64,000 nucleotides of DNA from Lacinutrix jangbogonensis. GTDB lineage: Bacteria > Bacteroidota > Bacteroidia > Flavobacteriales > Flavobacteriaceae. Within the stretch, counting starts at the first letter, position 1, and each line of letters starts with the position of its first letter. The position numbers and the translations under genes are program-made. Under the pieces are notes generated by a model. The model ran no database searches. It was not told the origin of the DNA and saw only the letters and a list, made by a program, of their open reading frames with translations. The stretch lies in assembly GCF_000797445.1 (NCBI RefSeq), contig NZ_JSWF01000031.1, positions 62,001-126,000 on the forward strand. Reading direction: 5' to 3'. Shown one piece after another: positions 25,329-40,602 of this stretch.

Positions 25329-25356
25329 CTGTCACTCTGAGCGCAGTCAAAAAGTC
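25329..25356. repeat. Fragment resembling a flavobacterial dispersed repeat
   Basis: The word GTCACTCTGAGCGCAGTC followed by an AAAAAGTCTT stretch resembles a short intergenic repeat I have seen in many flavobacterial genomes. Only one copy is present in this window, so the identification rests on memory and cannot be confirmed here. Confidence 0.3.
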
Positions 25357-26431: not shown

Positions 26432-26548
26432 TTCTCGATACCATTTTCTCGTACTTCACAAACCACTCGAAGTGACAAGCGGAGTCTTTAATCATAACTA
26501 GTTGTCAGTTCGAGTGATTTCGATTTTTCATCGAAATTGTATCGAGAA
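26432..26548. repeat. Palindromic repeat unit 1
   Basis: This unit is 117 bases. The outer arms are TTCTCGATACCATTTT-like and AAATTGTATCGAGAA; the inner arms are CCACTCGAAGTGACAA and TTGTCAGTTCGAGTG. A small third hairpin (TTTCGAT and ATCGAAA) stands between the right-hand arms, giving a cloverleaf-like fold. It ends 4 bases before the stop codon of the first GIY-YIG gene. Confidence 0.9.
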
Positions 26549-26552
26549 CCAA

Positions 26553-26846
26553 TCAATCCTTAAACTTCTTTTTCGAAAGATTAGGCAAGTTCTCGAACGC
26601 ATTATTTATTAATGCTTCTTTCTTTGCTCTTGACCATTTTTTAATCTGTTTTTCTGATTCAATAGCCTGATTTGGATTTGTGAATTCAGCATGAAAAACT
26701 AACTTGATTGGTCTTCTATTATGCGTGTAGCTATCTGGATATTTACCTGTTTGATGTTCTATAACTCTTGCTTGAAGTTTTGAGGTGAAACCTGTGTAAT
26801 AACTTTTATCTGAACACTCTAATATGTAAACGTAGTATGTTTTCAT
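26553..26846 (-). CDS. GIY-YIG nuclease domain protein, copy 1
   Basis: This 97-residue single-domain protein has the GIY-YIG core YYVYILECSDKSYYTGFT (VYI and YTG in place of GIY and YIG), the conserved Arg in LQARVIEHQTG and the Glu in AIESEKQIKKWSRAKKEAL. It belongs to the small YhbQ/UPF0213-like group. It is set between palindromic units, 4 bases after unit 1 and 27 bases before unit 2, and the same spacing is kept in the second copy. The protein differs from copy 2 by one residue (Pro for Leu in TNPNQ). A single-domain nuclease locked to a palindrome family recalls RAYT transposases with REP elements, but with a different nuclease fold. Confidence 0.9.
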   Translation of the reverse strand: MKTYYVYILECSDKSYYTGFTSKLQARVIEHQTGKYPDSYTHNRRPIKLVFHAEFTNPNQAIESEKQIKKWSRAKKEALINNAFENLPNLSKKKFKD

Positions 26847-26873
26847 ATTTAAAGGTAGTTAAAAATGATGTGC

Positions 26874-26990
26874 TTCTCGATACAATTTTCTCGTGCCTCA
26901 CAAACCACTCGAAGTGACAAGCTGAGTTGTTAATTGAACCTTGTTGTCACTTCGAGTGGTTTCGATTTTTCATCGAAATTGTATCGAGAA
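26874..26990. repeat. Palindromic repeat unit 2
   Basis: This unit is 117 bases and nearly perfect. Outer arms TTCTCGATACAATTT and AAATTGTATCGAGAA, inner arms CCACTCGAAGTGACAA and TTGTCACTTCGAGTGG, variable hairpin arms TTTCGAT and ATCGAAA. It lies just upstream of GIY-YIG copy 1, whose promoter may overlap its arm. Confidence 0.92.
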
Positions 26991-27001
26991 CTTATTTATG
27001 C

Positions 27002-27119
27002 TTCTCGATACAATTTTCTCGTGCCTCACAAACCACTCGAAGTGACAAGCTGAGTCTTTAACGATAACTAGTTGTCAGTTCGAGTGAAATTGCTTTTTCA
27101 GCAATTTAGTATCGAGAAC
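27002..27119. repeat. Palindromic repeat unit 3, variant hairpin
   Basis: The outer and inner arms are as in unit 2, but the small right-hand hairpin has arms AAATTGC and GCAATTT in place of TTTCGAT and ATCGAAA. Both sides of the stem changed together, so base pairing is kept. Confidence 0.9.
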
Positions 27120-27129
27120 TTATTTATGC

Positions 27130-27246
27130 TTCTCGATACAATTTTCTCGTACCTCAAAAACCACTCGAAGTGACAAGCTAAGTTTTTAATGATAACTTAT
27201 TGTCAGTTCGCCTGCAATTGCTTTTTCAGCAATTTAGTATCGAGAA
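27130..27246. repeat. Palindromic repeat unit 4, variant hairpin
   Basis: This unit is 117 bases with the same AATTGC and GCAATT hairpin as unit 3. The inner right arm is damaged (TTGTCAGTTCGCCTG), so this unit is decaying. Confidence 0.88.
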
Positions 27247-27257
27247 CTTATTTATGC

Positions 27258-27374
27258 TTCTCGATACCATTTTCTCGTGCCTCAAAAACCACTCGAAGTG
27301 ACAAGCTAAGTGGTTTATGATATCTTATTGTCATTTCGAGTGGTTTCGATTTTTCATCGAAATTGTATCGAGAA
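27258..27374. repeat. Palindromic repeat unit 5
   Basis: This unit is 117 bases with the standard TTTCGAT and ATCGAAA hairpin. The loop between inner arms is TAAGTGGTTTATGATATC rather than the GAGTTGTTAATTGAACC of units 2, 7 and 8. Confidence 0.9.
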
Positions 27375-27386
27375 CTTATGTGATGC

Positions 27387-27503
27387 TTCTCCATACCATT
27401 TGCTCATGCTTCACAAACCACTCGAAGTGACAAGCTAAGTGGTTTATGATATCTTATTGTCATTTCGAGTGGTTTCGATTTTTCATCGAAATTGTATCGA
27501 GAA
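27387..27503. repeat. Palindromic repeat unit 6
   Basis: This unit is 117 bases. The left outer arm is altered (TTCTCCATACCATTTGCTCATGC) while the right arm is intact. The loop is the same as in unit 5, so units 5 and 6 are probably a tandem copy. Confidence 0.9.
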
Positions 27504-27515
27504 CTTATGTGATGC

Positions 27516-27632
27516 TTCTCCATACCATTTGCTCATGCTTCACAAACCACTCGAAGTGACAAGCTGAGTTGTTAATTGAACCTTGTTGTCACTTCGAGTG
27601 GTTTCGATTTTTCATCGAAATTGTATCGAGAA
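27516..27632. repeat. Palindromic repeat unit 7
   Basis: This unit is 117 bases. The left part matches unit 6 (TTCTCCATACC), and the loop and right part match units 2 and 8, so it looks like a recombinant. It ends 4 bases before the stop codon of GIY-YIG copy 2. Confidence 0.9.
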
Positions 27633-27636
27633 CCAA

Positions 27637-27930
27637 TCAATCCTTAAACTTCTTTTTCGAAAGATTAGGCAAGTTCTCGAACGCATTATTTATTAATGCT
27701 TCTTTCTTTGCTCTTGACCATTTTTTAATCTGTTTTTCTGATTCAATAGCCTGATTTAGATTTGTGAACTCAGCATGAAAAACTAACTTGATTGGTCTTC
27801 TATTATGCGTGTAGCTATCTGGATATTTACCTGTTTGATGTTCTATAACTCTTGCTTGAAGTTTTGAGGTGAAACCTGTGTAATAACTTTTATCTGAACA
27901 CTCTAATATGTAAACGTAGTATGTTTTCAT
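27637..27930 (-). CDS. GIY-YIG nuclease domain protein, copy 2
   Basis: This 97-residue protein is identical to copy 1 (26553-26846) except for one residue (Leu in TNLNQ). The surrounding 4-base and 27-base spacers and the adjoining palindromic units are also the same, so a module of about 1.1 kb was duplicated recently. The family motifs are those described for copy 1. Keeping two intact copies of a one-domain nuclease suggests current or recent activity. Confidence 0.9.
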   Translation of the reverse strand: MKTYYVYILECSDKSYYTGFTSKLQARVIEHQTGKYPDSYTHNRRPIKLVFHAEFTNLNQAIESEKQIKKWSRAKKEALINNAFENLPNLSKKKFKD

Positions 27931-27957
27931 ATTTAAAGGTAGTTAAAAATGATGTGC

Positions 27958-28074
27958 TTCTCGATATAATTTTCTCGTACCTCAAAAACCACTCGAAGTG
28001 ACAAGCTGAGTTGTTAATTGAACCTTGTTGTCACTTCGAGTGGTTTCGATTTTTCATCGAAATTGTATCGAGAA
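27958..28074. repeat. Palindromic repeat unit 8
   Basis: This unit is 117 bases, with a left arm of TTCTCGATATAATTT and otherwise very close to unit 2. It is 27 bases upstream of GIY-YIG copy 2 and closes the array. Confidence 0.92.
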
Positions 28075-40470: not shown

Positions 40471-40542
40471 ATTAAGATTATCTCTTAGAGTGATTTTTGA
40501 GATACAAAAAATTGTATCGATAAGCATTCAAGGTTAAAATAG

Positions 40543-40602
40543 TTCTCGATACAAAATAATTATCTTCGTTGCACTCGATAATTATTTTACTCGAACTGAC
40601 AA
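40543..40602. repeat. Half unit of the palindromic repeat family
   Basis: This 60-base element has TTCTCGATAC at one end and CTCGAACTGACAA at the other, with a hairpin between whose arms are AAAATAATTATC and GATAATTATTTT. It is the reverse complement of the right half of the array units at 26.4-28.1 kb, with a third version of the variable stem. It lies between the GH20 and cutC genes. A further remnant of outer-arm sequence lies at about 40499-40521. Confidence 0.75.

Follow-up and report, generated by a model that had tools for sequence, protein, structure and literature searches.

The window analysed here is a stretch of 64,000 nucleotides of the Lacinutrix jangbogonensis genome, in which two nearly identical genes for a small GIY-YIG nuclease lie within an array of palindromes. 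This arrangement raises the question of whether enzyme and palindromes form a single system and, if they do, what the enzyme does to the repeats. From sequence comparison, the array is a strong candidate for a nest of TGTC-tagged, REP-like palindromes accompanied by a dedicated single-domain GIY-YIG nuclease.

Structure of the Array and Its Elements

Eight copies of one palindromic unit (repeat family D2) occupy positions 26432–28074, each running from the outer arm TTCTC[G/C]ATA through the outer arm GTATCGAGAA (Table 1). A first-pass annotation, made from the letters of the window, had described eight units of about 117 bp with inverted repeats and two near-identical 97-residue GIY-YIG genes at a fixed spacing, and both descriptions are borne out exactly: every unit measures 117 bp, and each gene is separated from the adjoining units by 4 bp after its stop and 27 bp before its start. 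The two copies are 99% identical, both match Pfam GIY-YIG, and they are the matches that the window protein finds in its own genome at E ≤ 0.001. In the same genome, near-full-length matches to one unit occur in this array only, and diverged pairs and single halves, recognized by eye, lie elsewhere. As for the claimed position between iaaA and cphB, the cyanophycinase neighbour scores above its NCBIfam cut-off, whereas the iaaA-like neighbour matches beta-aspartyl-peptidase below the cut-off (339.9 vs. 567 bits).

Table 1. Palindromic units, nuclease genes, and a dispersed element pair in the window.
Feature	Position	Strand	Description
Palindromic unit 1	26432..26548	.	TGTC-tagged half-element pair, tags inward
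GIY-YIG nuclease gene copy 1	26553..26846	-	97 aa
Palindromic unit 2	26874..26990	.	
Palindromic unit 3	27002..27118	.	
Palindromic unit 4	27130..27246	.	
Palindromic unit 5	27258..27374	.	Unit used for folding
Palindromic unit 6	27387..27503	.	96% to unit 5 over 129-nt repeat
Palindromic unit 7	27516..27632	.	
GIY-YIG nuclease gene copy 2	27637..27930	-	97 aa
Palindromic unit 8	27958..28074	.	
Dispersed nuclease-less pair, same element type	40480..40601	.	Tail to tail, partly decayed; core found by pattern, pair by eye

Each of these "cloverleaf" units consists of two inverted half-elements whose TGTC tags point inward (16 of 16 tags), and the genes sit tail to tail, between the outer ("tail") ends of adjacent units. 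A half-element reads, in order, TGTC, A, a 4-bp arm (CTTC/GTTC), GA, G, an insert, C, GA, and the closing arm (GAAG/GAAC). Among 72 halves from 15 chosen loci, picked by a pattern that leaves both outer arm letters free, these letters are G..C in 35, C..G in 30, and other combinations in 7, and thus the arm covaries. The upstream element is C..G at all five nuclease genes examined, and the downstream element is G..C at four of them and C..C at copy 2 of the window. Folded as single-stranded DNA, unit 5 reaches z-scores of −7.5 and −7.0 on the two strands, with 0 of 200 shuffles as good. The genome-wide count called for in the first-pass annotation finds a dispersed element of many copies, since its core, TGTCA[C/G]TTCGAGTG (REP-A), occurs 26 times in the window's genome; a reversed control of this pattern is absent from all 60 genomes compared.

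Other traces of such elements were noted in passing. A lone decayed TGTCACTCTGAGCGCAGTC element at 25330–25356 of the window belongs to the palindrome type found around L191, another nuclease of the group, and a broken nuclease relative (L057, G000:C24:9847-10047) lies elsewhere in the window's own genome (G000), beside GTCATTGCGAG-type sequence. In Rfam, positions 26931–27067 weakly resemble Wolbachia sRNA46 (27.3 bits vs. a gathering threshold of 65.3), and this RNA may in turn be related to a tagged palindrome.

The Nuclease

The proposal that the nuclease has a single domain is upheld, GIY-YIG being its only Pfam match and the predicted model (mean pLDDT 77) forming one domain in 97 residues. 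In 34 aligned proteins (alignment A6, comprising the window protein and 33 of the 80 loci described in the next section), Y17, G19, R27, H31, and E65 are invariant, and the Tyr, Arg, His, and Glu among them presumably have a catalytic role. The best structural matches found with Foldseek are the UPF0213 proteins 1zg2 and 1ywl, followed by SLX1 (E about 0.03), for which sequence comparison gives no significance (E 0.11 or worse); BH0048 ranks first both by sequence (E 3.4e-15) and by structure. To judge from dN/dS ratios of 0.07–0.11 in four species pairs among the window's genome, G001, G002, and G005 (dS up to 1.3), the nuclease is under purifying selection; the L088–L082 comparison was left out on account of a frame slip, dS is saturated in the other Bradyrhizobium comparisons, and the two window copies, with a ratio of 0.23, differ too little to judge.

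A phage or defence gene was considered and rejected, there being no PADLOC match and weak PHROG matches. Relatives of the nuclease are found in 24 phage records, e.g., that of Rhizobium phage RHph_Y65, with class identities of 29–43%. On plasmid p1 of Planktothrix agardhii (L062), a member of the repeat-linked nuclease group has an MmeI-type restriction gene on one side and the DISARM gene drmA on the other, and TGTCATTCTGAG repeats flank it at both ends.

Association of Nuclease Relatives with Palindromes

The first-pass annotation had named its own refutation: the link would be accidental if homologous genes in other genomes usually lay away from such palindromes. In a set of 60 genomes, the window's own included, 36 contain a match to the nuclease, and the 95 matches were reduced to 93 by dropping two fragments and to 91 by dropping two with less than 100 bp of flank. 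The flanks were compared with no sequence assumed, by searching for an exact repeat of at least 14 nt common to the left and right 250 bp; this threshold, those of at least five copies and at least 59–60% identity used below, and the REP patterns were chosen after viewing the data. Such a repeat flanks 59 of the 91 relatives, as against 9 of 432 control ORFs from the same regions (9 of 440 in an earlier version of the count) and 6 of 109 gap-matched controls, which have gaps of at least 80 bp on both sides. At 40 of the 59 loci, the shared repeat has a [C/T]GTCA tag no more than 20 nt away, compared with 90 of 911 random segments; the 19 loci lacking one near the repeat include diverged or untagged palindromes (L182, L202), as well as L246, L247, L249, and L260, which look like tRNA or coding sequence. 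A strict scan for perfect-stem hairpins gives a weak signal in this set (18 of 91 vs. 19 of 432), also against the gap-matched controls (11 of 109, p 0.04).

Genome G001 carries seven nuclease copies, two of them frame-broken, in six palindrome types as classified by eye, the GTCATTGCGAGG type being common to two copies; the flank test was negative at the G001 loci L178 and L183. Since copies of one genome occupy different palindrome types, the link is set apart from a species effect, and species-level confounding was rejected. Three findings narrow the claim that can be made about the tag and leave the association unaffected: the spread of the seven copies over six types, the weak outcome of the strict scan, and the untagged repeats. 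The idea of one palindrome family tied to the nuclease thus survives as to the tie, but other relatives carry other palindromes, many of them [C/T]GTC-tagged (the 40 of 59 loci above).

A protein-only query of one-per-species genomes returned at least 586 relatives, and the best 80 were kept; one of the three query rows, L051, already had tagged flanks. By their record titles, the 80 loci belong to Flavobacteria, Alpha-, Beta-, Gamma-, and Deltaproteobacteria, Nitrospirae, Spirochaetes, Ignavibacteria, Omnitrophota, Planctomycetes, and several candidate phyla. Among these best 80 of at least 586, a strict [C/T]GTC-tagged hairpin lies within 250 bp on at least one side at 68 loci (39 of 263 controls; 12 of 50 gap-matched controls) and on both sides at 39 (5 of 263; 2 of 50), and the flank repeat of at least 14 nt is found at 54 (2 of 50 gap-matched controls). 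Together with the 59 of 91 in the first set, where the other 32 relatives fail the flank test, these counts favour a genuine link for most relatives. Chance or base composition as the source of fold and association is ruled out by the fold shuffles and the control ORFs. On this comparative evidence, enzyme and palindromes almost certainly belong together.

The placing of the hairpins is also regular. The 39 two-sided loci are oriented (+,−) in 29 cases, (−,+) in 4, (−,−) in 3, and (+,+) in 3, the usual order being tag > hairpin > tail > gene < tail < hairpin < tag. The nearest upstream hairpin lies 18–41 nt before the match start at 38 of 57 loci (27 in the window), and the nearest downstream hairpin 3–23 nt after the stop at 30 of 50 (4 in the window). 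At 63 of the 80 loci, a CGTC-REP-type hairpin with no more than one mismatch is present within 300 bp, with the tag TGTC in 42 and CGTC in 21, a CCA tail in 54, and a 6-nt loop in 3. In aligned hairpins, where the scanner requires pairing and only compensatory changes therefore carry weight, double-sided pair changes fill 17 cells in 27 aligned examples (2.6 in shuffles) and 27 cells in 15 aligned examples (8.3 in shuffles); alignment A4 leaves out 4 of the 31 8/4 hairpins as near-copies (L076, L077, L081, and L083). Loop class shows weak clustering along the nuclease tree (14 changes vs. 17.8 shuffled, 12/500; 22 of the 80 loci, outside the two loop classes, left out), and loop-class co-phylogeny was set aside for the weakness of this signal. 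No tagged hairpin was found at L116, L140, and L144 even by a loose scan. The loci L116, L140, and L143, which are without clear tagged hairpins, form a clade (SH-aLRT 96), a possible case of repeat loss.

Cognate Pairing and Comparison of Orthologous Sites

Two nuclease types, A (at least 59% identical to that of the window) and C (at least 60% identical to that of L070), were compared with the repeats of their genomes. At least five REP-A cores occur in 6 of 9 genomes with nuclease A and in 4 of 51 others (Fisher 0.0003), and at least five copies of REP-C, a CGTC-type repeat, in 4 of 6 genomes with nuclease C and in 3 of 54 others (0.001). The crossed pairings are weaker, with a value of 0.26 between REP-A and nuclease C, but between REP-C and nuclease A some signal remains (Fisher 0.06, rank test 0.01). 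In the eight other genomes with nuclease A, REP-A cores number 5–65 in five, one in G034, and none in G040 and G053, and the repeat occurs in the absence of nuclease A in G048 (68 cores), G036, G006, and G012. Similarly, G028 holds 15 REP-B copies and, like G048, gave no nuclease match in the protein searches run (window-type and nuclease C), and G018 holds 24 REP-C copies, its nearest nuclease-C relative containing six stops. Repeat counts thus appear to follow the cognate nuclease, with orphans, and the exceptions count against a strict rule.

The first-pass annotation had also suggested comparing sites with and without units, and between species, orthologous sites are indeed found empty, with a gene-less pair, or with the nuclease. 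At the iaaA–cphB site, the genes adjoin in G010, which by eye is empty, G001 and G005 have units and one nuclease, and the window has eight units and two. In G002, the corresponding region (L164, G002:C2:77665-80874) shows a truncated iaaA-like gene that runs into the apparent 3' end of a cyanophycin synthetase; the array-bearing stretch is missing, and an assembly fault is possible. An S46 peptidase gene is present in 12 of 13 genomes of the genus, and its downstream site, compared by eye, carries units and a nuclease in G002, one gene-less unit in G001, and a decayed unit in G007, with no unit within 700 bp downstream in the other nine genomes; the window's genome has a pair about 0.8 kb from this site (L014). 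At one Bradyrhizobium site, the nuclease is accompanied by one repeat type in L082 and L091 and by another in L088, L104, and L108, the arrangement is inverted in L148, and L117 has a repeat pair of a third type and no nuclease. The repeat types differ even between L082 and L088, which are closest by flank (93% and 92%). An exchange of cassettes in Bradyrhizobium is not claimed here, as protein identities hinted at it (95% vs. 87%) and DNA identities gave no resolution. Neither a target-site duplication nor an exact insertion joint was found, which counts against the explanation preferred below.

Relation to Known Systems

The UPF0213 (COG2827) proteins (B. subtilis YazA; 1zg2, 1ywl) have the same single-domain fold of about 95 residues as the nuclease. 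They differ in that the YazA-like genes lie between yabA/trmN6 and rsmI in three Bacilli and that the set mostly lacks, by eye, an EKxIKxW-type motif. Among plasmid records (20 of 43 used), the flank repeat is found at 0 of 13 YazA-like genes, L065 having a one-sided hairpin, and at 4 of 7 genes of the other, repeat-linked group, the group labels having been set partly after viewing the flanks of 12 of the 20 loci and the 8 later loci all falling in the repeat-less group. GIY-YIG homing endonucleases, intron-borne enzymes that join the nuclease to a separate DNA-binding domain and whose DNA breaks provoke copying, and SLX1, which cuts branched DNA, share the catalytic fold; the nuclease here, a single domain in 97 residues, shows no added DNA-binding domain.

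On the side of the repeats, CGTC repeats were defined in five phyla including Bacteroidetes by Di Nocera et al. (2013; PMC3733652), and the CGTC-tagged REPs include Neisseria dRS3 and Rickettsia RPE-4 and RPE-6; in the part of that paper considered here, the repeats apparently have no dedicated transposase and no associated transposase genes. The terms GIY, nuclease, transposase, and RAYT do not occur in the portion of the main text of the 2025 RepRanger paper (PMC12306157) considered here, and no paper tying GIY-YIG proteins to REPs was found among the titles and abstract openings listed from the open-access literature, bioRxiv excluded. The relatives' loci resemble CGTC-tagged REPs in their [C/T]GTC tag, 8–9 bp stem, and 4–5 nt loop (63 of 80), and the half-elements of the window resemble them in their TGTC tag. 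However, the window elements have a 4-bp arm, tandem GA mismatches (GA.GA), and a longer insert, in place of the 8–9 bp stem, 4–5 nt loop, and CCA tail that define the CGTC-tagged REPs, and with this short stem, these mismatches, and this insert they would be at most a divergent branch. Beyond what the first-pass annotation had described, the GIY-YIG link extends to many phyla, and many of the palindromes have the known CGTC-tagged REP form, with no enzyme assigned in the part of the defining paper considered (PMC3733652). Closest in organization are the REPtrons of the REP/REPIN-RAYT systems, which, according to the parts of two papers considered (PMC6006769, PMC8266576), likewise set a small nuclease gene between inverted tagged palindromes and show cognate pairing, repeats without an enzyme, and gene-less dimers. 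The enzyme here is GIY-YIG, not HUH/Tyr as in the RAYTs, which cut and rejoin single-stranded REP DNA at the tag; the system would work like a REPtron and, as the protein shows no HUH domain (Pfam: GIY-YIG only), is not a RAYT.

Alternative Explanations

The nuclease might have a housekeeping function, trimming or resolving the palindrome hairpins in a structure-specific manner, so that the repeats are made tolerable and not spread. SLX1 is a structure-specific enzyme, and its rank behind UPF0213 among the nearest folds (Foldseek E about 0.03) as well as the purifying selection on the nuclease are consistent with such a role. Taken alone, however, housekeeping is an unlikely explanation, as it does not account for the short-distance placing of the gene between inverted elements in many phyla, for the different palindromes of the copies in G001, or for the differences in gene and elements between species at one site. 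The gene could also be a passenger, present by chance or as a fixed neighbour in palindrome clusters that are insertion-tolerant spots, and L036, L037, and L042 (G017, G009, and G011), by eye, as well as several Bradyrhizobium loci, do look inherited with the same neighbours. This passenger explanation is disfavoured and has very little probability in view of the flank repeats at 59 of 91 and 54 of 80 relatives, compared with 6 of 109 and 2 of 50 gap-matched controls.

Movement of the palindromes in trans by a HUH transposase (RAYT/IS200), with some other role for the GIY-YIG gene, was rejected on the distribution of Y1_Tnp and the absence of nearby REP-A cores, and is highly improbable. A Y1_Tnp match does occur in 7 of 11 genomes chosen for REP-A or nuclease A, but no REP-A core, the one repeat sought, lies within 1.5 kb (less at contig ends) of any of the 23 Y1_Tnp loci, and G002, G005, G012, and G036 are without a Y1_Tnp match, yet G005 has 65 REP-A cores; moreover, CGTC repeats are reported without transposase-gene association in the part of PMC3733652 considered. 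An RNA-level role, in which the hairpins serve termination or RNA stability and the enzyme has an RNA target or is under the control of the hairpins, has some precedent in the REPs acting in RNA discussed in parts of PMC3733652 and PMC5082802 and in the one Rfam match, Wolbachia sRNA46, below gathering. Termination, however, needs neither a tag nor a fixed orientation, and the distribution among genomes and copies resembles that of mobile DNA, so that this role also appears improbable.

Proposed Mechanism and Significance

The explanation preferred here, and probably the right one, is that the nuclease targets the palindrome and brings about the spread or maintenance of these repeats. The first-pass proposal of a GIY-YIG analogue of REP/RAYT is partly supported, the association having withstood the refutation named with it; that the palindrome is the substrate, and that the enzyme has a mobilizing or maintaining role, is the inferred part. 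When the palindrome is single-stranded, during replication or repair, or extruded, the nuclease would recognize the hairpin with its GTC tag and cut there, and the break would then be repaired with another element as the template. GIY-YIG enzymes act by DNA hydrolysis and are not known to have a strand-transfer step, which favours repair copying over excision and insertion. Such copying may spread, homogenize, and tandemly amplify the elements, now and then together with the nuclease gene, and the gene-less pairs would be a non-autonomous form, as REPINs are to RAYTs.

More broadly, we lean towards the view that the CGTC/TGTC-tagged REP superfamily has, across bacteria, its missing dedicated enzymes in this group of GIY-YIG nucleases. 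They may form a second, independently evolved class of palindrome-mobilizing systems, parallel to RAYT–REP, that would operate by hydrolytic cutting and repair-coupled copying and not by HUH transposition. The maker and mover of the CGTC-tagged palindromes were left open in the part of the defining paper considered here (PMC3733652), and a candidate enzyme of about 95 residues can now be put forward. If this is true, palindrome-spreading systems evolved at least twice in bacteria, with unrelated nucleases, and many genes annotated just as "GIY-YIG nuclease family protein" would gain a testable function.
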